A DNA stretch of 6,660 bases from Dehalococcoidia bacterium (GTDB lineage: Bacteria; Chloroflexota; Dehalococcoidia; JACVQG01). Position 1 is the first letter of the stretch, and every line of letters begins with the position of its first letter. Position numbers and translations under genes: made by a program. The notes under the pieces were generated by a model that saw only the letters and a list, made by a program, of their open reading frames with translations, made no database searches and had not been told where the DNA came from. Below, piece by piece: positions 1 to 6,660 of this stretch. The stretch covers positions 1-6,660 of the forward strand of contig JACVQG010000079.1 of NCBI GenBank assembly GCA_015661045.1. The letters are read 5' to 3'.

Positions 1-32
1 CCCGTTCAGTTTGCAAGAAAGTACCAAACGTC

Positions 33-146
33 AATAGCTACCCTACTTTACTACGTTTGTTTACCAATGCCCCGGTGAGCTGGTATTCCGTCTCCAGGTT
101 CAGCCAGAACCGCGCCGGTATCTCCGGCATGACTTCATCGAGTTGC
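33..146. repeat. Direct repeat copy 1: 3' part of higA (partner 2057-2170)
   Basis: This 114-nt stretch aligns without gaps to 2057-2170, with about 10 mismatches by hand count (about 91% identity). Similarity covers the last 35 codons of higA plus the stop codon and five bases beyond it, then ends abruptly on both sides. The two copies have the same orientation and enclose the complete AbiE operon. Confidence 0.85.
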
Positions 147-184
147 CGGCGAAGTTGTTCCAACTTTTCATTATCAGCGGCCAT
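38..184 (-). pseudogene. Chimeric 48-residue ORF: foreign N-terminus joined to HigA C-terminal fragment
   Basis: An ATG at 184 preceded by AGGA (4-nt spacing) opens a 48-residue frame ending in TAG at 38. Its first 15 residues (MAADNEKLEQLRRQL) are unlike HigA. From there on it reads DEVMPEIPARFWLNLE and ends NKRSKVG, matching residues 61-95 of the intact HigA in this window with a few substitutions (DEY for EDY-type changes, G for R, V for I). The helix-turn-helix is missing, so it cannot bind DNA as HigA does. It starts 25 nt after the AbiEii stop in the same direction and could be co-transcribed. I infer a recombination scar. A small antitoxin-like protein able to touch HigB is possible but unsupported. 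Confidence 0.6.
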
Positions 185-209
185 TGCGTCCTAACCCATA
201 AGCGAATCT

Positions 210-1028
210 CTAATCAAGGGATTGAAAATGTGGAGCTATGAGCTTATCCAGCATAGCCCGTAACTCAGTCAATACCTCAACAAGCGGCGGCAGCAGCCTT
301 ATCTGTTGACCCAGGTCTTTTTCCCAGTATCGTTTCAACCCATCGAGGTCTTTGGGGAAGAAGTCACCCAGGTTCCGGATAGCGAGACCTTTATGCGTAA
401 GCTTCTGTTTTAAGACCGTGACCAGGAGCTTGAAATCGAGATTGACGTGTTGTTCTTTGAGAAGCCGCCATACATCGTAGTAGTCCCGGGACTTACCCCG
501 CTCCAGCAGACTTCTCATCTTCTCAGCGAGCAGTTCCTCAAGGGGATATACCAGCAACTTTTGCCCCTCAGATGAGAAAGGCGCAGTCAGGACCTTCTGG
601 CAATCAGGGGCAAGGCATAATGGCTCATCAAAACTCAAGTCCATGAAAATCATACCGGTGTAGGATAATGGCCCGATGAATTGGACCCTGACACGGGCAT
701 AACCATCCGGTTTGTGCAGCATCTTCGTGGCTAGACGTACCTGGGAGGCTTGCTCTACCTGACGATACCACCTGTCAAGCTCTTGCCGAAGCTCACCTTT
801 TTCCATATCGCGCTTCACCGTGAAATCCAGGTCTTCCGAATAGCGCCAATCGGCGAAGTAGACTTTGCGCAGGGCAGTACCTCCCTTGAATACCAGCAAT
901 TCGCTAAGAGTGGATACCTGTGACAGAGATTTGAGTACCTCGGTGAGGACGTAGTCTTTTTCCAATGTGCCCAGTGCCACCTTTTCACGATTGGCCAGTC
1001 TCTGGAGTTCAGACTTAGATATTATCAA
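210..1028 (-). CDS. abiEii: AbiEii-type nucleotidyltransferase toxin
   Basis: Toxin half of a type IV AbiE toxin-antitoxin/abortive-infection module; family members are cytoplasmic nucleotidyltransferases that arrest growth. The 272 residues carry the family motifs in order: FKGGTALRK (48-55) with the Gly-Gly-Thr nucleotide-binding turn, SEDLDF (64-69) with the Asp-x-Asp metal site D66/D68, YPLEELLAEK (161-170) with the motif III lysine K170, and KSRDYYDVWRLL (179-190) with D182 and D185. All appear intact, and length is normal for the family. The start is TTG at 1028: an in-frame TGA lies two codons upstream and no ATG lies nearby. The frame overlaps the abiEi stop by 4 nt (TTGA), the usual antitoxin-then-toxin coupling. 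A GAAGG lies directly against the TTG, an unusually short spacing, so initiation probably depends on translation of abiEi. Confidence 0.93.
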   Translation of the reverse strand: MIISKSELQRLANREKVALGTLEKDYVLTEVLKSLSQVSTLSELLVFKGGTALRKVYFADWRYSEDLDFTVKRDMEKGELRQELDRWYRQVEQASQVRLATKMLHKPDGYARVRVQFIGPLSYTGMIFMDLSFDEPLCLAPDCQKVLTAPFSSEGQKLLVYPLEELLAEKMRSLLERGKSRDYYDVWRLLKEQHVNLDFKLLVTVLKQKLTHKGLAIRNLGDFFPKDLDGLKRYWEKDLGQQIRLLPPLVEVLTELRAMLDKLIAPHFQSLD

Positions 1029-1846
1029 CCTTCAGTCCATTGCGTGAATTCTTTTTCCGGAACATTTACTATTACTCTCCACCGTTGGATATGCTGGCCT
1101 TGCGGGTCTGCCAGAGTGTCGAGCAGCGTGTAACTGTTACCGAGGTTCTCACGAAGAATATCGATAGCTTTGCTGGCTTTAATACCTAGCTTTTCTAAAA
1201 GGTAGCCCAGTCGCTTGCTCACCGCGCTGTTTCCGTTCCGCCGGGCATATTCAGACATTTTGGGGAAGTCCAGTTCATCGCGACCGAACGAAATTGCCTT
1301 TGCTACCTCGACTACGCCACCTGAATACTTCGGCAAATCAAGACAATCTACAATGGTCTTCTCACGTTCTGAAATATTCACTGGATTACCGTCTATAAGC
1401 ACCTGGGTCGCCCCGAAAAACTTACTTTTGTTCAAACAGACGAAACGATAGGTTACGCCGGAAATTTCCAGAGTAGTCTTCAGTTTCCGCCTGGTCGAAA
1501 TGATGAAAACAGTTCGGCTGACCTGTTCAGTATAACCATAATAGTTGAGGGCGCTACGGAATCCAATATAATAAGGCTCAATCAAATGGGAAGCTATTAC
1601 GAATTCATGTTCCGTCCATTCGCCCTCGCGCCCGGCTTCAAACGGGAGAATAAGGTACTTGCCCTTTTCAATTCGCTGAAGCCAGCCCCGTTTAACCAGA
1701 GTGAACATCAATTTGCGTAATCGTCCGTCACTGCTGCCGTAAACCCTGGCGGCGTCCTCAAAAGTGAAAAGGCGTTTGCCTTGCCTGGACATCTCTGTCA
1801 AAAGGTTGCTTCCCTTTTCGCCCAGAGTCCTGATATTTAGTGTCAT
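1025..1846 (-). CDS. abiEi: AbiEi-type antitoxin, winged-helix transcriptional repressor
   Basis: Antitoxin half of the AbiE pair. In characterised systems AbiEi neutralises AbiEii without stable complex formation (type IV) and represses its own promoter. Residues about 12-66 form a winged helix (DAARVYGSSDGRLRKLM, then LVKRGWLQRIEKGKYLI with the typical KGKY wing). The body then has IASHLIEPYYIGFRSALNYYG (84-104), TVFIISTRR, and SEREKTIVDCLDLPKYSGGVVEVAKA (159-184), all hallmark AbiEi segments. At 273 residues it is full length. The ATG at 1846 has GAAAGG at 1855-1860 with 8-nt spacing, behind a strong extended -10 promoter. The gene is first in the operon and overlaps abiEii by 4 nt. Confidence 0.93.
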   Translation of the reverse strand: MTLNIRTLGEKGSNLLTEMSRQGKRLFTFEDAARVYGSSDGRLRKLMFTLVKRGWLQRIEKGKYLILPFEAGREGEWTEHEFVIASHLIEPYYIGFRSALNYYGYTEQVSRTVFIISTRRKLKTTLEISGVTYRFVCLNKSKFFGATQVLIDGNPVNISEREKTIVDCLDLPKYSGGVVEVAKAISFGRDELDFPKMSEYARRNGNSAVSKRLGYLLEKLGIKASKAIDILRENLGNSYTLLDTLADPQGQHIQRWRVIVNVPEKEFTQWTEG

Positions 1847-1868
1847 AATAATTACCTTTCAGGGAACT

Positions 1869-1897
1869 ATTATAGCACGATATTTAAAATATGGCGA
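1869..1897 (-). promoter_or_regulatory. Promoter of the abiE operon
   Basis: Read on the minus strand: -35 TCGCCA (1892-1897, 4 of 6 to consensus), 17-nt spacer, then TGC-TATAAT (1869-1877), a perfect -10 with the extended TGn. Predicted start is near 1862, giving a leader of about 16 nt that just includes the abiEi ribosome site. The spacer holds an AT-rich near-palindrome (1880-1892, ATATTT-A-AAATAT-like) that could be part of an AbiEi operator; that role is inference. Confidence 0.65.
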
Positions 1898-2056
1898 TGC
1901 GTTGCTTTAGCCAATGAAAAGGCAAGAAGAACACAGATTGTAGCAAGAATACGACTGGAACACGCGATATCTTTGCATTCTAACCCACCGGTACGGAGAC
2001 GCCGTGGCAACATGAGTGCTCGCTTAAACGCAGATTACGGACAGGCACGAACTGGA
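1898..2056. other. Intergenic spacer between abiE promoter and higA 3' end
   Basis: No convincing gene is visible. An imperfect stem lies around 1984-2008 (CCAC paired with GTGG plus two further pairs across a bulge), but no T-run follows on either strand, so I do not call a terminator. A 12-mer AACACAGATTGT at 1930-1941 recurs at 3303-3314 upstream of the relBE promoter. Confidence 0.5.
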
Positions 2057-2170
2057 AATAGCTACCCTACCTTACTACGTTTGTTTATCAATGCCCTGGT
2101 AAGCTGGTAATCCGTCTCCAGATTCAGCCAGAACCGCGCTGGTATCTCAGGCATGACCTCCTCGAGTTGC
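2057..2170. repeat. Direct repeat copy 2: 3' part of intact higA (partner 33-146)
   Basis: Ungapped partner of 33-146 with about 10 of 114 positions different. This copy lies inside the intact higA and is the likely parent or sister. Similarity stops right after TTGC at 2170. Confidence 0.85.
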
Positions 2171-2349
2171 AGGGCGGTACCGGCGGTAATGGCTTTCTTC
2201 CCATTGATAATCTCATTTATAGCGTTCAGCGGCCGCCCCATGCGCCTCGCCAGTTCCTTCTGAGAGATACCTCGCGCCTCGATTTCCTCAGCCAGGTACT
2301 CACCGGGAGGGATTGCAATATCGGGGTAAGCATCAGTCTTAGTCACCAT
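2062..2349 (-). CDS. higA: HigA-family antitoxin (XRE helix-turn-helix)
   Basis: Antitoxin of the HigB/HigA type II module: binds the toxin and represses the operon. The 95 residues open with the family's N-terminal PDIAIPPGEYLAEEIEARG, followed by an XRE-type helix-turn-helix at about 27-53 (SQKELARRMGRPLNAINEIINGK) and a short C-terminal PARFWLNLE segment. I take the ATG at 2349, not the earlier in-frame ATG at 2400. GGAGG (2356-2360) lies 6 nt ahead of 2349, and the family begins just before PDIAIPPGE. The frame overlaps the higB stop by 11 nt, toxin first, the reversed gene order typical of higBA. Segments of this gene are duplicated at both edges of the window (33-146 and 6062-6112). Confidence 0.92.
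   Translation of the reverse strand: MVTKTDAYPDIAIPPGEYLAEEIEARGISQKELARRMGRPLNAINEIINGKKAITAGTALQLEEVMPEIPARFWLNLETDYQLTRALINKRSKVG
2291..2341. repeat. Direct repeat: 5' part of higA (partner 6062-6112)
   Basis: These 51 nt covering higA codons 3-20 match 6062-6112 at 50 of 51 positions without gaps, in the same orientation. The one difference changes PPGEYL to PLGEYL in the distant copy. Confidence 0.9.
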
Positions 2350-2635
2350 GGTAATCCTCCACATCCATAATACGCAATTTGTCTTCCTGGACTTTTTCAA
2401 TAATAAGCCGATAGTTGCCCGTAAGAGTTAACGAGTACTGTCCGTCGCGGGTCCCTTTCAAAGGGTGCAATTTCAATGCCTTGTACCCATAGAGTTGGGT
2501 GAATTTGTCCGTAGCTCTCAGAACGGCCAGCCGCTGGATATATTTCCGGCCAATCGGAATTCCGAAAAGACGGCTGGCCTCTGATAGGCTTACACTTGCG
2601 TTAGCCAGGCGATTTGACGAGAAATCTATTTCCAC
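2339..2635 (-). CDS. higB: HigB-family toxin (RelE-fold mRNA interferase)
   Basis: Toxin of the higBA module; family members are ribosome-dependent endoribonucleases that cleave mRNA. At 98 residues it has the diagnostic C-terminal half LKLHPLKGTRDGQYSLTLTG (54-73), then NYRLIIE (74-80) and VEDYH (92-96). The basic and aromatic residues K60, R63, R76 and the terminal Tyr-His are kept, so it looks active. The start is GTG at 2635, backed by AAGGG (2643-2647) at 7-nt spacing. An ATG 4 nt upstream is out of frame and its frame closes quickly. The N-terminus (SNRLANASVSLSEASRLFGIPIGRKYIQRL) is the usual leading helix region. It precedes and overlaps higA. Confidence 0.92.
   Translation of the reverse strand: MEIDFSSNRLANASVSLSEASRLFGIPIGRKYIQRLAVLRATDKFTQLYGYKALKLHPLKGTRDGQYSLTLTGNYRLIIEKVQEDKLRIMDVEDYHGD
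2356..2360 (-). promoter_or_regulatory. Ribosome binding site deciding the higA start
   Basis: GGAGG on the minus strand with 6-nt spacing to ATG 2347-2349. It lies inside the higB coding end and supports the 95-residue HigA over the 112-residue frame. Confidence 0.8.
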
Positions 2636-2642
2636 CCATACA

Positions 2643-2647
2643 CCCTT
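2643..2647 (-). promoter_or_regulatory. Ribosome binding site deciding the GTG start of higB
   Basis: AAGGG on the minus strand, 7 nt ahead of GTG 2633-2635. The overlapping ATG at 2637-2639 leads only to a very short frame, so GTG is preferred. Confidence 0.65.
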
Positions 2648-2653
2648 AAGGCT

Positions 2654-2682
2654 AATTTACGTCAATATATTCAACTTGTCAA
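2654..2682 (-). promoter_or_regulatory. Promoter of higBA
   Basis: Minus strand: perfect -35 TTGACA (2677-2682), 17-nt spacer, -10 TAAATT (2654-2659, 4 of 6). The predicted transcript begins near 2647, at the ribosome site, so the leader would be very short. It lets higBA be expressed separately from relBE upstream. Confidence 0.6.
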
Positions 2683-2707
2683 GCGGTATTTTAAGCCCAA
2701 AGCATGG

Positions 2708-2723
2708 TAATTAAATTTAATTA
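2708..2723. repeat. 16-bp perfect AT palindrome between relE and higB
   Basis: TAATTAAATTTAATTA equals its own reverse complement. It lies between the relE stop (2729) and the higB -35 (2682). It could be an operator half or a cruciform-prone spacer. There is no GC stem, so it is not an intrinsic terminator. Confidence 0.5.
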
Positions 2724-2728
2724 TTGTT

Positions 2729-2986
2729 TCAACGATAAACATCTTTGCGACGGCTAACTTTTACTATCCAGACAATGAACTCATTATCTTGAACTGAGTA
2801 TACGACGCGATACCGTCCCTGACGGAGGCGGTACCTTTCCTGACCCGTTAACTTTTCGCAACCAACGGGTCGTGGCTCTGTGGTTAGTGACTGAATCCGT
2901 TCGAGAATCTTGTTCGTATCTTTCTGGGGAATTGCCCTGAAGTCTTTCTCGACCGACGCTCTGAAATAGACTTTATATTCGGCCAT
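2729..2986 (-). CDS. relE: RelE-family toxin (mRNA interferase)
   Basis: Toxin of a RelBE-type II module, expected to cut mRNA in the ribosomal A site. The 85 residues show the compact RelE/ParE fold: strand MAEYKVYFRASVEKDFRAIP, helix KDTNKILERIQSLTTEPRP, then EKLTGQERYRLRQGRYRVVYSV (44-65) and the C-terminal VWIVKVSRRKDVYR (72-85). Basic residues R55, R60 and R79/R80 and terminal Y84 sit where RelE catalytic residues usually lie. The start is ATG at 2986 with AAGGA close upstream, and the frame overlaps relB by 14 nt. ParE gyrase-toxin relatives share the fold, but the RLRxGxYRVVY and RxDVYR pattern fits RelE better. Confidence 0.92.
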   Translation of the reverse strand: MAEYKVYFRASVEKDFRAIPQKDTNKILERIQSLTTEPRPVGCEKLTGQERYRLRQGRYRVVYSVQDNEFIVWIVKVSRRKDVYR

Positions 2987-3206
2987 CTTTCCTTAACCTT
3001 ATGACCATTTCGTCATAGGTCAGCAGGGGCTCTCTGCCCCTTTCCTCAAATGCTGCAATATCCTCAGCATCCTCCGAAAGGGATTCTCTAACGGCATCGT
3101 TTACAAGCTCCGATACTGATTTAGAGATAGCAACTGATTTTAGACGTAGCGCCTTGTGCAAATCAGAGTCCAGGTATATAGTGGCTCGTTTGGTTTGGGA
3201 AGTCAT
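2973..3206 (-). CDS. relB: RelB-like ribbon-helix-helix antitoxin
   Basis: Antitoxin partner of the RelE downstream. Residues about 6-43 form a ribbon-helix-helix: strand KRATIYLD, helix SDLHKALRLKSVA, turn ISKS, helix VSELVNDAVRESLS. The acidic linker SEDAEDIAAFEERGRE and the C-terminal LLTYDEMVIRLRKDGRI are the toxin-wrapping tail common in this group. At 77 residues the length is normal. The start is ATG at 3206 with GAGG (3214-3217) at 7-nt spacing. It is first in the operon, behind a promoter whose -10 sits in a palindrome. I see no sign of decay. Confidence 0.9.
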   Translation of the reverse strand: MTSQTKRATIYLDSDLHKALRLKSVAISKSVSELVNDAVRESLSEDAEDIAAFEERGREPLLTYDEMVIRLRKDGRI

Positions 3207-3230
3207 AATAACACCTCACTGTGTTATATT

Positions 3231-3259
3231 ACTATAATATTATAGCGCCATAACGTCAA
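3231..3259 (-). promoter_or_regulatory. Promoter of relBE
   Basis: Minus strand: -35 TTGACG (3254-3259, 5 of 6), 17-nt spacer, -10 TATAGT (3231-3236, 5 of 6). Predicted start is near 3224, with an 18-nt leader carrying GAGG. Confidence 0.7.
3232..3245. promoter_or_regulatory. Likely RelB operator palindrome over the -10
   Basis: CTATAATATTATAG is a perfect 14-bp palindrome that overlaps the relBE -10. Ribbon-helix-helix antitoxins commonly repress by binding palindromes at this place; assignment to RelB is inference. Confidence 0.5.
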
Positions 3260-3313
3260 AACGTCTTATTGAAATTAATCTTTCAAGCAAGCCAGAAGTT
3301 AAAACACAGATTG

Positions 3314-3321
3314 TGCTCCAT
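3314..3321. repeat. 8-bp target-site duplication, left copy
   Basis: TGCTCCAT sits directly outside the left inverted repeat that begins at 3322. The identical 8-mer is at 3832-3839, directly outside the right inverted repeat, in the same orientation. The next base (G) also matches but is needed for the inverted repeat, so 8 bp is the natural reading. Confidence 0.85.
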
Positions 3322-3358
3322 GGTAAAGTTCAATCGTGCTTTTTTCATTAGGCACTCT
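3322..3358. repeat. Left terminal inverted repeat of the cassette
   Basis: Blocks GGTAAAGTTCA (3322-3332) and ATTAGGCACTCT (3347-3358) separated by 14 nt that include a run of T. The stop codon of the passenger gene begins only two bases further in, at 3361. Confidence 0.85.
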
Positions 3359-3360
3359 CT

Positions 3361-3702
3361 TTATTTGGGCCATCGTTCGTCTAGGCGCTTAACGAGTTCA
3401 TTAATTGATGTCGTGAGGTTATCCAGTTTGCCATTGAGTTCCTTGAATGATTCTCTATTAGATTTACCAGAGTTTCTAACCTGTAAAATTACACATATAA
3501 CTGACATGTAGAAAAAGAAAGCAATCAGAAACCCCAATATTCCCGAAGCAGTCCCAGGGTGACCATTGGCATATATCCACAATAACGGGAGGATGATAGT
3601 TGAGACAGTCCAAACTATGTTTATCACAGTTTCCCATCCTTTGTCCCAGTCACGTTCAATACGCCGAAAGGGCCATAAAGGGTCGTTTGGCCGCTTAGAC
3701 AT
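3361..3702 (-). CDS. Small two-helix membrane protein with C-terminal coiled coil, cassette passenger
   Basis: I do not recognise a family. The 113 residues start MSKRPNDPLWPFRRIERDWDK, a basic/aromatic cytoplasmic-looking head. Two hydrophobic spans follow at about 25-45 (TVINIVWTVSTIILPLLWIYA) and 52-75 (GILGFLIAFFFYMSVICVIL), joined by a short NGHPGTAS loop. From about 80 to 110 a charged amphipathic helix (FKELNGKLDNLTTSINELVKRLDE) has heptad-like spacing and may oligomerise. Both ends are probably cytoplasmic. ATG at 3702 follows a perfect AGGAGG (3709-3714) at 6 nt. The gene nearly fills the 510-bp cassette between its inverted repeats. A membrane-effector or phage-exclusion role is possible but is speculation. 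Confidence 0.85.
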   Translation of the reverse strand: MSKRPNDPLWPFRRIERDWDKGWETVINIVWTVSTIILPLLWIYANGHPGTASGILGFLIAFFFYMSVICVILQVRNSGKSNRESFKELNGKLDNLTTSINELVKRLDERWPK

Positions 3703-3736
3703 GATGCGCCTCCTGCTGACAAACTATTCGGCAGGT

Positions 3737-3765
3737 AGTATACCCTACTTGGGTGTTCTTGACTA
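3737..3765 (-). promoter_or_regulatory. Promoter inside the cassette for the membrane-protein gene
   Basis: Minus strand: -35 TAGTCA (3760-3765, 4 of 6), 17-nt spacer, -10 TATACT (3737-3742, 5 of 6). It lies inside the inverted repeats, so the passenger gene travels with its own promoter. Confidence 0.55.
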
Positions 3766-3793
3766 TATCTCATTGTATTAATCCTTTCTAGCA

Positions 3794-3831
3794 AGAGTGC
3801 CTAATTACTTTGACGAAGAGTGAACTTTACC
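3794..3831. repeat. Right terminal inverted repeat of the cassette
   Basis: AGAGTGCCTAAT (3794-3805) and TGAACTTTACC (3821-3831), separated by 15 nt: the reverse complement of the left arm's two blocks in the expected order. Confidence 0.85.
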
Positions 3832-3839
3832 TGCTCCAT
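3832..3839. repeat. 8-bp target-site duplication, right copy
   Basis: TGCTCCAT, identical to 3314-3321 and directly abutting the right inverted repeat. Confidence 0.85.
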
Positions 3840-3846
3840 GAACTGT

Positions 3847-3875
3847 TTGCTTTAAGCTGTAAGTATACGTATAAT
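3847..3875 (+). promoter_or_regulatory. Probable promoter of the moxR-VWA operon
   Basis: -10 TATAAT (3870-3875, perfect) with TTGCTT (3847-3852, only the TTG matches) 17 nt upstream. A 10-bp palindrome TATACGTATA (3864-3873) overlaps the -10. The transcript would begin near 3882 and have a leader of about 100 nt. The promoter starts only 8 nt past the cassette's right target duplication, so the insertion separated it from any upstream control sites. Confidence 0.5.
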
Positions 3876-3881
3876 TTGTAA

Positions 3882-3983
3882 ACAGGCTGTAGAATTCAAC
3901 CTGCCTCTGGAACACACCCGCTTTAAATTAGAGTCGGGTTAAACACTTTTCTGCAAAACAATTCAGAAGGAGTCAATTTAGTA
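3882..3983 (+). other. Leader of the moxR operon with a small hairpin
   Basis: About 100 nt between the predicted start and the GTG. ACCCG (3916-3920) can pair with CGGGT (3935-3939) across a 14-nt AT-rich loop. The stem is short and I see no known riboswitch. AGAAGGAG (3965-3972) is the ribosome site for the GTG at 3984; its spacing of about 11 nt is longer than usual. Confidence 0.4.
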
Positions 3984-4844
3984 GTGAATACTTGTGATTT
4001 TGATCAATTCAAGGGTTCATCAAATTATGTTACCTCTGAGCCATTAAGAAACGCAGTTAATGTAAGTATCGCTCTGGGAAGGCCGTTATTAATCAGGGGA
4101 GAGCCGGGGACAGGGAAAACCCAGTTGTCTCACAGCATAGCTAAGGGATTGGGGAAAAAGTTGTTTACCTGGAACATAAAATCAACTACCAAGGCTCAAG
4201 AGGGGCTATATGTTTATGATACGGTACAAAGGCTTAACGACAGCCGTTTTGGCGATAAAAATGTTTCAGATATCAAACAATATATCAAGCTGGGTAAACT
4301 GGGACAAGCCTTTACTTCTCCCGAACAAATTGTGTTACTTATCGACGAGGTAGACAAGGCTGATATTGAGTTTCCCAATGACCTCCTTAACGAACTGGAT
4401 GAAATGAGTTTCTATATTCCGGAGACCAATGAGACCATCTCCGCCATCCACCGGCCGATAACGGTTATCACCAGTAATGCTGAGAAGGAGCTTCCGGATG
4501 CTTTCTTACGGCGCTGTATATTCCATTATATTGAATTCCCCAACCATGAGTTGATGGAGAAGATTGTCAAAGTTCACTATCCTGATATTAAGAATAACCT
4601 TCTCCATGAGGCGCTGAAAACCTTTTACTCGCTCAGGCAAATTGATGAATTCAGAAAAAAGCCCTCAACCAGCGAGTTGTTAGACTGGATTCGCGCTCTC
4701 CTGGCCTCAGACATACCCCACGATAAAATATCTTCCGAGATCCCTCTAATTAGCGCTCTGTTAAAAAAGGAGCAGGATTATAATCACCTTGTAAACACTT
4801 ACATGACCAGGGTGGGCGATAACTTTGTTATCAGACGGAAATAG
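3984..4844 (+). CDS. MoxR-family AAA+ ATPase (partner of the VWA protein)
   Basis: Cytoplasmic ATP-driven remodelling protein of the MoxR group. Such proteins usually act with a von Willebrand A partner to activate or insert a cofactor into another protein (RavA/ViaA, NorQ/NorD, CoxD/CoxE style). In 286 residues: Walker A GEPGTGKT (39-46), IKSTTKAQEGLYVYD (65-79, subfamily signature), Walker B VLLIDEVDKADIEFPNDLL (117-135) with D121/E122, sensor 1 VITSN (161-165), arginine-finger segment FLRRC (174-178), and KKPSTSELLDWIRALL (225-240) in the lid near sensor 2. The C-terminal segment SALLKKEQD is also typical of this subgroup. The start is GTG; the FKGSSNYV that opens the family follows at residue 9. 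It ends 2 nt before the VWA gene. The enzyme acted on cannot be read from this window. Confidence 0.93.
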   Translation: MNTCDFDQFKGSSNYVTSEPLRNAVNVSIALGRPLLIRGEPGTGKTQLSHSIAKGLGKKLFTWNIKSTTKAQEGLYVYDTVQRLNDSRFGDKNVSDIKQYIKLGKLGQAFTSPEQIVLLIDEVDKADIEFPNDLLNELDEMSFYIPETNETISAIHRPITVITSNAEKELPDAFLRRCIFHYIEFPNHELMEKIVKVHYPDIKNNLLHEALKTFYSLRQIDEFRKKPSTSELLDWIRALLASDIPHDKISSEIPLISALLKKEQDYNHLVNTYMTRVGDNFVIRRK

Positions 4845-4846
4845 GC

Positions 4847-6016
4847 ATGTTAACCGATTTTTTTTATACTCTAAAAAACAGGAAAGTACCGGTTTCCATT
4901 ACCGAATGGATGACCCTTATGGAAGCGCTTTCCAAAGGTTATATTTCTAGTCTGGATGAGTTTTACTATCTGGCAAGAGCCATACTGGTTAAAAGCGAAA
5001 ACCATTACGACCAATATGATGTTGCCTTTCAAGAGTACTTCAAGGGAATAGAAGGCCCGGCCGAAATCAACCAGCAAATACTGGACTGGCTTAAAGACCC
5101 TGCAATCCGGAAAACTCTCACCGAAGAAGAACGTGCTTTATTTAAGAGCATGGATTTTGACAAATTACTCGAGGAATTCGAAAAAAGGCTTAAGGAGCAA
5201 ACAGAGCAGCATGATGGAGGCGGTAATTGGATTGGCAGGGGAGGCACCTCCCCCTTTGGACACTCCGGTTACCATCCTGGCGGTATCAGGATTGGCGGTC
5301 AATCAGGGCATGGACATGCTGTAAAAATCGCTGCGGAGAGAAGGTTCCAGAACTATCGGAGTGACCTTACCCTTGATATTCGCCAGATTAAGATGGCCTT
5401 AAGAAGACTGCGGCAGTTGAGCCGCACGGGATATGAGGATGAGCTGGACCTGGATGAGACGATAGATGCCACTTGCAAGAACGCCGGCGAGCTTGAATTT
5501 ATATGGATGCGAAGCCGGAAGAATGCGGTTAAAATGCTCCTGTTAATGGATGTTGGCGGCTCTATGGACCCCTTCGCATTGCTGTGCAGTCAACTTTTTT
5601 CGGCGGCCCATTCCAGCAGTCACTTCAAGGATTTTAAATTTTATTACTTCCATAACTGCATTTACGATAGCCTGTATCAGGATATTGAAAGGCGGGGTGC
5701 GGTTAGCACCGACCATTTATTGCGCACTATGGAGCCCGACTATAAGGTAGTGCTGGTTGGAGACGCCTCGATGGCTCCCTCGGAACTGATACAGAGGGAT
5801 GGAATTATCAACTACTATGAACACAATGAAACCGCAGGTGTAGTCTGGCTCAAGCGGATTGCCGACCATTTTACGCATTCTGTCTGGCTAAATCCCGATA
5901 ACTCAAACTACTGGGACAGCATGTCTGTCAATATGATTAAGAAGATATTCCCCATGTTTGAACTAACCCTGGATGGCCTTGGGGAGGCAATGAAGAAATT
6001 GACGGTAAATAAGTGA
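4847..6016 (+). CDS. CoxE-like von Willebrand A domain protein, MoxR partner
   Basis: Soluble partner of the MoxR ATPase just upstream; the 2-nt gap and lack of a strong ribosome site point to translational coupling. The 389 residues have an N-terminal helical part (LTDFFYTLKNRKVPVSITEWMTLMEAL at 2-28) and a charged helix (about 92-122). A glycine-rich linker follows (124-157, including GRGGTSPFGHSGYHPGGIRIG), then RRFQNYRSDLTLDIRQIKMALRRLRQLSR (165-193) with LDLDETIDAT (200-209), and a VWA domain (about 227-389). The metal site reads DVGGSM (235-240) instead of the textbook DxSxS; this DVGGSMD form is the norm in this subfamily as I know it. VLVGDASMAPSEL (302-314) and VVWLKRIADHFTHSVWLNP (332-350) are further subfamily signatures. 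No signal peptide or membrane span. The cellular role of this ATPase/VWA pair is not established. Confidence 0.92.
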   Translation: MLTDFFYTLKNRKVPVSITEWMTLMEALSKGYISSLDEFYYLARAILVKSENHYDQYDVAFQEYFKGIEGPAEINQQILDWLKDPAIRKTLTEEERALFKSMDFDKLLEEFEKRLKEQTEQHDGGGNWIGRGGTSPFGHSGYHPGGIRIGGQSGHGHAVKIAAERRFQNYRSDLTLDIRQIKMALRRLRQLSRTGYEDELDLDETIDATCKNAGELEFIWMRSRKNAVKMLLLMDVGGSMDPFALLCSQLFSAAHSSSHFKDFKFYYFHNCIYDSLYQDIERRGAVSTDHLLRTMEPDYKVVLVGDASMAPSELIQRDGIINYYEHNETAGVVWLKRIADHFTHSVWLNPDNSNYWDSMSVNMIKKIFPMFELTLDGLGEAMKKLTVNK

Positions 6017-6061
6017 TCGGCCACGGTTTGCTGCATCGAAGACAAACCCAACCAGCAGTCC

Positions 6062-6112
6062 GCCAGGTACTCACCGAGAGGGATTGCAATATCGGGGTAA
6101 GCATCAGTCTTA
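6062..6112. pseudogene. higA 5' fragment (remnant)
   Basis: 50 of 51 nt match higA codons 3-20 at 2291-2341, in the same orientation (minus-strand coding). Translated, it gives NKTDAYPDIAIPLGEYLA behind a possible GTG at 6129. After the alanine the frame leaves higA and runs antisense into the VWA gene. No helix-turn-helix remains. It lies 45 nt after the VWA stop. The near identity suggests a recent copy or conversion, in contrast to the older-looking 3' fragment at 33-146. Confidence 0.85.
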
Positions 6113-6117
6113 TTCGT

Positions 6118-6128
6118 ATTAGCTATCA
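6118..6128. repeat. 11-bp direct repeat, left copy, possible target duplication
   Basis: ATTAGCTATCA, identical to 6420-6430. The two copies lie just outside the inverted repeats TGTCCAAATTAG (4 nt away here, 6 nt away at the right end). Confidence 0.6.
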
Positions 6129-6132
6129 CTCT

Positions 6133-6144
6133 TGTCCAAATTAG
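6133..6144. repeat. Left inverted repeat TGTCCAAATTAG
   Basis: Exact reverse complement of 6402-6413. It also forms a tight local inverted repeat with 6150-6158 (TGTCCAAAT against ATTTGGACA, 8-nt loop). Confidence 0.75.
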
Positions 6145-6150
6145 GTTTTA

Positions 6151-6161
6151 TTTGGACAGCA
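6151..6161 (+). repeat. TTTGGACAGCA copy 1
   Basis: Identical 11-mer also at 6309-6319 and 6406-6416, all in the same direction within 266 nt and each preceded by A/T-rich bases. Confidence 0.75.
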
Positions 6162-6308
6162 TAAATCACTTAGTTGCTCAAGGAGTAGCCTAATTCGATA
6201 GCCTCTATCATCCATAAGGCGAGAATTTACAGGTGTGATTAAATAAGCGATTTGAATGTCCTGCCTGTCCCATGTGGGTAAAAACAATTGGAATTATCAC
6301 TAAAATAA

Positions 6309-6319
6309 TTTGGACAGCA
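6309..6319 (+). repeat. TTTGGACAGCA copy 2
   Basis: Preceded by TAA exactly as in copy 3, giving a shared TAATTTGGACAGCA. Confidence 0.75.
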
Positions 6320-6353
6320 TTTTTATAAACCTCATTTTTCAAGGAGCAATTTC

Positions 6354-6401
6354 TTGTCTAATAACACGAGTGAAATCAATGAAGAGAGACCTTATTTTTA
6401 G
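6354..6401 (+). pseudogene. Possible truncated reading frame start (15 codons)
   Basis: AAGGAG (6341-6346) lies 7 nt ahead of a TTG that reads MSNNTSEINEERPYF, then TAG exactly where the right inverted repeat begins. It looks like the opening of a gene cut off by the element's end, perhaps an ancestral transposase. It is too short to identify and could be chance. Confidence 0.2.
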
Positions 6402-6413
6402 CTAATTTGGACA
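6402..6413. repeat. Right inverted repeat CTAATTTGGACA
   Basis: Partner of 6133-6144. It is embedded in the hairpin TAGCTAAT (6399-6406) with ATTAGCTA (6420-6427) around a 13-nt loop. Confidence 0.75.
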
Positions 6414-6416
6414 GCA
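6406..6416 (+). repeat. TTTGGACAGCA copy 3
   Basis: Third identical 11-mer; it overlaps the right inverted repeat. Confidence 0.75.
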
Positions 6417-6419
6417 ATG

Positions 6420-6430
6420 ATTAGCTATCA
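6420..6430. repeat. 11-bp direct repeat, right copy
   Basis: ATTAGCTATCA, identical to 6118-6128. Confidence 0.6.
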
Positions 6431-6440
6431 TGATTGCGTA

Positions 6441-6480
6441 AGAAAGTGGTGGCACAGGCGTCTCTGCCTGTGTATTCACC
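6441..6480 (-). terminator. Hairpin downstream of the reductase gene, likely terminator
   Basis: Perfect 7-bp stem CACAGGC (6453-6459) / GCCTGTG (6466-6472) with a 6-nt loop, extended by an outer GGTG (6448-6451) / CACC (6477-6480) across a bulge. On the minus strand it lies 36 nt past the reductase stop and is followed by ACTTTCTT, a weak T-rich tail. It could also be a dispersed intergenic palindrome. Confidence 0.5.
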
Positions 6481-6515
6481 ATACATTATACTGCTATTTT
6501 GATTGCAATTTCGAA

Positions 6516-6660
6516 TTAGTCACATGGTAATCGTCCCGCGTTTAAACTGCGCAGAATAGCAGTCAACAAAGCAAGCTGAGGGGTGTTGACGCCAAGCGAC
6601 CCGGCGCGGCGCAGCGGCTCGCCGAACATAGCCTCGATCTCCATTACCCTGCCCTCGATA
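6516..6660 (-). CDS. 2-dehydropantoate 2-reductase-like protein, C-terminal fragment (continues beyond window)
   Basis: The window edge cuts the gene: only the last 47 codons and the TAA (6516-6518) are present. They read GRVMEIEAMFGEPLRRAGSLGVNTPQLALLTAILRSLN then AGRLPCD. This is the closing helix pair of the ApbA/PanE C-terminal domain, where the EIxAxxGxxxRxxxxLGVxTP pattern contributes to the substrate side. Full family members make pantoate with NADPH in pantothenate and CoA synthesis, but many paralogues act on other 2-oxo acids, so I give no gene symbol. It is followed by a hairpin and probably marks ordinary chromosome next to the island. Confidence 0.8.
   Translation of the reverse strand, partial: IEGRVMEIEAMFGEPLRRAGSLGVNTPQLALLTAILRSLNAGRLPCD

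Follow-up and report, generated by a model that had tools for sequence, protein, structure and literature searches.

A short insertion without a transposase

Given that a small gene enclosed by inverted repeats and an exact direct repeat lies in the middle of this stretch of DNA, we asked whether the segment is a mobile cassette and, if so, which family of elements could have inserted it. The window analysed comprises 6,660 nt of a Dehalococcoidia bacterium (GCA_015661045.1, contig JACVQG010000079.1, positions 1-6,660, forward strand). The original prediction had placed here a 510-bp mobile insertion cassette with an 8-bp target duplication and two perfect inverted blocks per end (11 and 12 bp), enclosing a single membrane-protein gene and no transposase. 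These boundaries proved exact to the base (3314-3321 / 3322-3831 / 3832-3839), and both blocks were recovered as perfect repeats, the outer of 11 bp (3322-3332 / 3821-3831; 14 nt at 93% when extended) and the inner of 12 bp (3347-3358 / 3794-3805). The cassette contains one plausible gene, of 113 aa and preceded by an AGGAGG Shine-Dalgarno sequence, and no transposase domain was found in the nine window ORFs scanned. We consider it very probable that the segment is a cassette that lacks a transposase and whose ends are those of an IS6-like family from Dehalococcoidia, likely inserted together with its membrane gene by a transposase of that family. Its features are as follows.

3314-3321: left target-site duplication TGCTCCAT, an exact 8-bp repeat of 3832-3839
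3322-3831: 510-bp transposase-less insertion cassette (very probable), with inverted ends and an abutting 8-bp duplication; two further insertions elsewhere in the genome share these ends
3322-3358 (+): left end, with outer block GGTAAAGTTCAATC and inner block ATTAGGCACTCT; like the transposase-3' end of full elements
3361-3702 (-): passenger gene, 113 aa; two membrane helices predicted by hydropathy and a long C-terminal helix
3737-3742 (-): weak candidate -10 box TATACT of the passenger gene; 9/12 consensus match, not above shuffle expectation
3794-3831 (-): right end, with outer block GGTAAAGTTCACTCTT and inner block ATTAGGCACTCT; inverted repeat of the left end, like the promoter end of full elements
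3832-3839: right target-site duplication TGCTCCAT, an exact 8-bp repeat of 3314-3321

Chance co-occurrence of the inverted and direct repeats had been judged very unlikely, and shuffling agrees with that judgement. When the window was dinucleotide-shuffled 1000 times, a 7-bp inverted repeat with an abutting 5-bp direct repeat arose 1.24 times per window; the observed 11 + 8 bp represent 7 more matched bases, which extrapolates to approximately 8e-5 per window with the inner 12-bp block left uncounted. The description of the gene as promoter-equipped fared less well: three promoter-like sites (9-10/12) do occur in 3200-4000, two of them inside the cassette, but 1.6 are expected by chance and the signal is therefore weak. 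TATAAT- or TATACT-like boxes lie near the same end in full elements when compared by eye. The cassette is flanked by a ParE/CcdA-like pair on one side and a MoxR-type ATPase/VWA pair on the other.

Sister insertions in the host genome

A search for other copies with variable flanking 8-mers had been proposed as a check, and the host assembly (2.14 Mb, 373 contigs, 67% complete) does contain two further insertions with the cassette ends, each with other contents and another exact 8-bp duplication, and neither with a complete transposase.

L005 2464-3048: insertion on contig C158, 585 bp; exact 8-bp duplication GGGGCCAG; 114-aa and 56-aa predicted membrane proteins
L006 1509-1802: insertion on contig C114, 294 bp; exact 8-bp duplication AACGGGTT; last 86 codons of a transposase

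The left end in the window is 91% (44 bp) and 95% (38 bp) identical to the ends on C158 and C114, respectively. On C158 the 56-aa protein, which is just over the membrane threshold, reads from the opposite end to the 114-aa one. The right end on C114 (CATAAAGTTG) is internal transposase coding sequence that resembles a true end. A weak tblastn extension passes this boundary, and beyond it the ERFHxTxxxRT stretch found in the nearest relatives is missing; we take the boundary, given by the end-like sequence and the duplication, as real with reserve.

Before insertion, the window target would read ...GATTGTGCTCCATGAACTG... with a single TGCTCCAT. No orthologous empty site was found among the genomes searched, one of which, from the same genus, matches from 3845 rightwards without the left flank; in the same-genus genome no match spans the C114 site. 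An insert-free paralogous repeat in this same-genus genome, G001, aligns through the C158 junction (82% over 66 bp, with gaps and 7/8 duplicated bases). The C158 insertion adjoins dispersed repeats: three places in G001 match its left flank (query 1143-1246), and one place matches up to the insertion point (query 1226-1283; L005 around 2464 and 3048).

An IS6-like parent family in Dehalococcoidia

The 86-aa transposase fragment on C114 led to the parent family, which comprises IS6-like DDE elements of Dehalococcoidia with a transposase of approximately 350 aa, ends mostly reading GGYAAAGTWCAMTC, 8-bp duplications, and TTAGGCAC or its reverse further in. Matches to the fragment were found in 25 of 393 genomes of the class, host included, the best being in G185 (74% and 71%) and G246 (63%). 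Three transposases scored 57.1, 57.9 and 50.1 bits against the Pfam model DDE_Tnp_IS240 (cut-off 27). Against the NCBIfam IS6 transposase model they scored 110.8, 114.0 and 102.2 bits, below the curated cut-off of 125, and the family is for that reason named IS6-like rather than IS6. GG tips are present in the family ends; the internal cTGTt and caaa motifs given in the available text of PMC7986276 are not evident in GGYAAAGTWCAMTC by eye.

A pattern-led scan of one genome per species (84,980 species) yielded 11 loci, all in Dehalococcoidia, Dehalococcoidales or Chloroflexi. Eight of these are close relatives with both ends, and six of the eight have exact 8-bp duplications (L047 is without one, and L050 runs off its contig). 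The boundaries of the more distant L054 and L056 were set later, and L055 is truncated by a contig end. In close elements the ends were found first and then the duplication, while in distant elements the duplication was itself a search criterion. Paired-block ends occurred in three of the 393 class genomes with one inner orientation and in four with the other (five in all), with no control matches. The transposase of L045 matched four of 201 genomes of the phylum at 1e-20, all from the same class; it also matched 310 plasmid records, the best 30 of 310 at 21-30% identity, and the 86-aa fragment had no plasmid match. Neither relatives of the transposase or passenger nor the end pattern were found in viral_contigs.

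Full elements measure 1.4-3.8 kb and are ordered as promoter end, membrane-protein gene, transposase, optional second gene and other end. The window left end shares 28/36 bases with full-element ends of G185 (30/36 for the C158/C114 version), and 15/16 outer bases of the right end match the promoter end of the element G185:C75, where the inner block is oppositely oriented. The distinction between end types is not strict: in L046 and L049 the promoter end also has AATC, as the other end does. Genes downstream of the transposase occur in four of the eight close elements, encoding DNA methyltransferases of one family (L048, L050), a LAPAL-family protein (L052, which is L043 in the NCBIfam scan) and a 93-aa predicted membrane protein (L053). 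The suggested search for a full IS with the same ends found complete elements with similar ends in related genomes; in the host assembly it returned no complete family transposase, the sole trace being the C114 remnant. This absence of a helper is a weak argument, because the assembly is 67% complete and in 373 contigs.

Elements of the family also adjoin one another. At L051, a full element follows a 462-bp cassette that encodes a 105-aa predicted membrane protein, and CAATCACG stands at each of the three joints; at L123 two full elements are stacked, and each of their three joints has GCAAGAAG. The element at L107 1946-4082 (duplication CTTGAAGG) lies where the transposase gene of another element begins, with zinc-ribbon coding sequence directly after it; this nested insertion suggests that the family jumps into itself. 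In a separate observation, an end of the G185:C75 element, for which there is no target duplication, lies directly beside a repeat array (L041 5450-5962) whose translation repeats VHPHTRGEY and which looks CRISPR-array-like by eye.

Mobilisation in trans or deletion in place

We infer that the cassette is a full element minus its transposase module, mobilised in trans: it would retain the membrane gene between its promoter end and the opposite end, and a related transposase would move it. The transposase would presumably bind both ends and join them to target DNA cleaved with a stagger of 8 bp, the repair of which would give the 8-bp duplication. The passenger gene would read from the promoter-type end, as in full elements; the 114-aa gene of C158 and the 105-aa gene of L051 read from the other end, which argues against a strict "lost transposase" layout.

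Identical ends, duplication and gene would also be left if a full element with membrane gene and transposase had inserted, duplicated its target and then lost the transposase by internal deletion in place, the cassette never having moved as such. The window gene does have the position and direction of the upstream passenger in full elements. Moreover, no second copy of the window cassette was found in the host assembly and no cassette was found at two different sites, so that the cassette may have moved either before or after losing its transposase. However, one genome carries three such insertions at separate places, all lacking a complete transposase and all flanked by an exact duplication, and deletion in place does not yield the C114 duplication beside a surrogate internal end, nor does it sit easily with the L051 cassette, which has its duplication in common with the adjoining full element. 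We regard this history as unlikely for the window insert and favour insertion of a cassette by a transposase of the family.

A slot for predicted membrane proteins upstream of the transposase

In all eight close full relatives, the gene immediately before the transposase, and in line with it, encodes a predicted membrane protein. The survey was then widened to more distant transposases among the matches to the C114 fragment. Membrane proteins were predicted by hydropathy alone (19-residue Kyte-Doolittle window, at least 1.6). Among 26 elements with assigned ends (excluding L114 and L120, whose ends are unlike the rest, L120 possibly being real, cf. L151), 19 have an upstream same-strand ORF of at least 70 aa, and 19/19 of these are membrane proteins by this measure, compared with 38/137 flanking ORFs; for downstream ORFs of the same set the figure is 8/18. 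The survey gave 47 transposase ORFs, 42 of which remained after exclusion of five fragments below 290 aa. When the ends are ignored, an abutting upstream ORF precedes 32 of the 42, and 29/32 are membrane proteins, compared with 10/46 upstream partners of other gene pairs. One of the 29 (before L107:4066) lies within a neighbouring element. As for the three non-membrane cases, L097 scores 1.58 against the threshold of 1.6, the L113 ORF crosses the element end, and the L123 ORF is the neighbouring transposase. Held-out loci gave 12 new transposases (L141 and L142 were excluded as the contigs of L056 and L054 again, with the same lengths and duplications), 10 with an abutting ORF, of which 8/10 are membrane proteins (p 9e-4); such p-values serve as guides only, because loci of one class are related. 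The held-out non-membrane ORFs are those of L144 (278 aa) and L150 (89 aa).

L144 4252-5088 (-): upstream cargo, a 278-aa non-membrane ORF, exception to the membrane rule

The start of this ORF may resemble that of an Ntn-hydrolase.

Passengers in the slot are mostly unrelated to one another, and three small families (A, B and C) recur, each on separate branches of the transposase tree. If the elements simply took up any nearby gene, the membrane signal could be a neutral by-product of AT-rich, hydrophobic chance ORFs. In the ten elements compared, the AT content of the upstream part does exceed that of the transposase (in some only slightly), and two of three passengers used as database queries have one relative each besides themselves. 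The third, however, has 26 relatives, and the membrane bias far exceeds that of flanking ORFs of the same loci and recurs in held-out loci. In addition, different transposases carry members of families A, B and C, and family A has a dN of 0.49 against a dS of 3.07, which is near saturation (dS is saturated in B and C). Neutral hitch-hiking appears very improbable.

The upstream protein might instead belong to the transposition machinery: a membrane segment made before the coupled transposase could bring the transposase or its mRNA to the membrane, so that only membrane insertion would matter and the sequence hardly at all. The mostly unrelated occupants of the slot are compatible with this, as is the way in which the upstream ORF abuts or overlaps the transposase start with a membrane protein at the frequencies given above. 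The L105 transposase carries a predicted membrane segment as an N-terminal fusion, both within one 512-aa frame. The available text of PMC6807381 describes three IS6-family transposases (clade VIII) that are extended further at the N-terminus, with a signal peptide in the extension. Nevertheless, 10/42 transposases and 2/12 held-out ones have no abutting upstream ORF, L144 has its non-membrane ORF instead, transposase-less cassettes retain intact membrane genes, and some full elements carry additional membrane ORFs downstream. We regard a machinery role as less likely than not.

Apparent exchange of slot genes between elements

Three pairs of transposases (L046/L047, L054/L056 and L100/L101), each pair in one genome, are 91-94% identical and preceded by unrelated membrane genes. 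In all three, DNA identity is regained at the transposase ATG or 2-3 bases ahead of it; in L056 this ATG is the sixth codon of the ORF as called. The first 52 bp of L054 and L056 are also identical, to 5 bases before the passenger start codon. Identity resumes at the ATG in L050/L051 as well; L095/L096 fits less well, with identity starting 15 and 39 bases into the called ORFs. Because identity restarts next to the transposase start codon, the upstream gene slot looks, on sequence comparison, to have been exchanged as a module.

We tentatively propose as a real possibility that Dehalococcoidia host a radiation of modular IS6-like transposons, with an exchangeable membrane slot, start-codon-precise swaps, one transposase fusion, and cassettes that spread slot genes alone. 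The slot would then be either an unrecognised requirement of transposition, through a membrane-placed transposase, or a cargo site in an arms race.

Defence cargo was sought by scanning 35 cargo and transposase proteins at 0.01. PADLOC returned 80 families, and among the 25 listed all were methyltransferases, from two members. The 19 PHROG families were mostly methyltransferases or transposases, with one DNA helicase family and a few unnamed. Pfam gave single-member matches to OppC_N and DUF7243 in the same proteins, and the L100 passenger had a sub-threshold match to the 2-TM domain CyanoTRADDas_TM (21.1 bits, cut-off 24.3).

The passenger protein of the window cassette

A search of 5.8 billion proteins found one relative of the 113-aa passenger, 46% identical, with which it shares a nearly invariant C-terminus, KLDNLTxSINELVKRxDERWPK. 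AlphaFold modelled the protein as a two-helix hairpin with moderate confidence (mean pLDDT 76.5, pTM 0.41); a further predicted model in the analysis had a mean pLDDT of 64. No match was found in Pfam, PADLOC or PHROG at 0.01, and the one NCBIfam match was far under its cut-off (18.8 against 40 bits). The passenger may be expressed cargo with an envelope function that aids persistence of the element and is not needed for transposition, a less certain reading than that of the cassette itself. We favour such envelope cargo, with a role in transposition nearly as likely given the fixed place of the slot before an abutting transposase and the L105 fusion.

Relation to known elements

Cassettes that carry a gene on IS ends have a precedent in MIC231, which uses IS231 ends. 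The original prediction had cited the IS231 group and had not recognised the ends; the precedent holds as an analogy only, and the ends are now assigned to the IS6-like family of Dehalococcoidia. MICs, MITEs and passenger-carrying "transporter" IS (tIS) are established classes in the available text of PMC3129680, where MICs have IS ends, lack a transposase of their own and can be activated by a cognate one. The window cassette likewise has IS-type inverted ends with an abutting duplication, and a passenger gene without a transposase between them; a complete IS with matching ends and transposase exists in related genomes and not in the host assembly. It differs from known MICs in the transposase family involved, in that the window, C158 and L051 cassettes carry different small membrane genes, and in that the parents carry a passenger slot too. 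The full relatives resemble tIS in bearing passenger genes besides the transposase inside the IS, for example DNA methyltransferases, and differ in an upstream slot whose occupant is in most cases a predicted membrane protein, apparently swapped at the start codons.

The DDE domain, GG tips and 8-bp duplications are shared with IS6/IS26, and IS6 clade h has transposases of 340-350 aa. According to the available text of PMC7986276, most IS6 members are 700-890 bp long and encode transposases of 213-254 aa, the longest members reach 1710-1760 bp, and two MITEs without ORFs are known. Long IS6-type transposases that have zinc fingers are described in PMC6807381. The elements here measure 1.4-3.8 kb and score under the NCBIfam IS6 cut-off. 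The single passenger-carrying IS6 member named in the available texts of PMC7986276 and PMC6807381 is ISDsp3 (1456 bp) of Dehalococcoides sp. BAV1, which likewise combines a Dehalococcoidia host, an IS6-type transposase and one hypothetical passenger gene. Compared by description only, ISDsp3 differs in having its own transposase, and those texts describe no membrane slot, exchange or transposase-less cassette for it. Neither a membrane slot nor an IS6-type cassette with a gene was reported among the best matches of the literature searched, which lay largely outside subscription journals.

The broader slot pattern is more interesting than the window insert itself. Most IS6 elements described in the available texts are about 800 bp with a transposase alone, whereas those found here mostly add a predicted membrane protein, which differs even between near-identical transposases. 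If true, this would be a testable example, either of transposition linked to the membrane or of a small mobile vehicle that carries envelope genes. In an ordinary annotation, scattered hypothetical proteins are probably all that would appear.

Other features of the window

Three toxin-antitoxin-type gene pairs lie in a row to the left of the cassette, and a second repeat structure lies to its right.

210-3206 (-): three toxin-antitoxin-type pairs, namely AbiEii/AbiEi, a sub-threshold HigB-like gene with an HTH gene, and ParE with a sub-threshold CcdA-like gene
33-149 and 6059-6115: partial copies of the HTH (HigA-like) gene region 2062-2400, at 91% over 117 nt and 95% over 57 nt; matching segments 2057-2173 and 2288-2344
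6125-6144 / 6402-6421: inverted repeat ATCACTCTTGTCCAAATTAG / CTAATTTGGACAGCAATGAT (85%), with more TTGGACAGCAT copies between

The partial copies of the HTH region suggest that the toxin-antitoxin cluster was rearranged or duplicated. The inverted repeat at 6125-6421 could be another small element.
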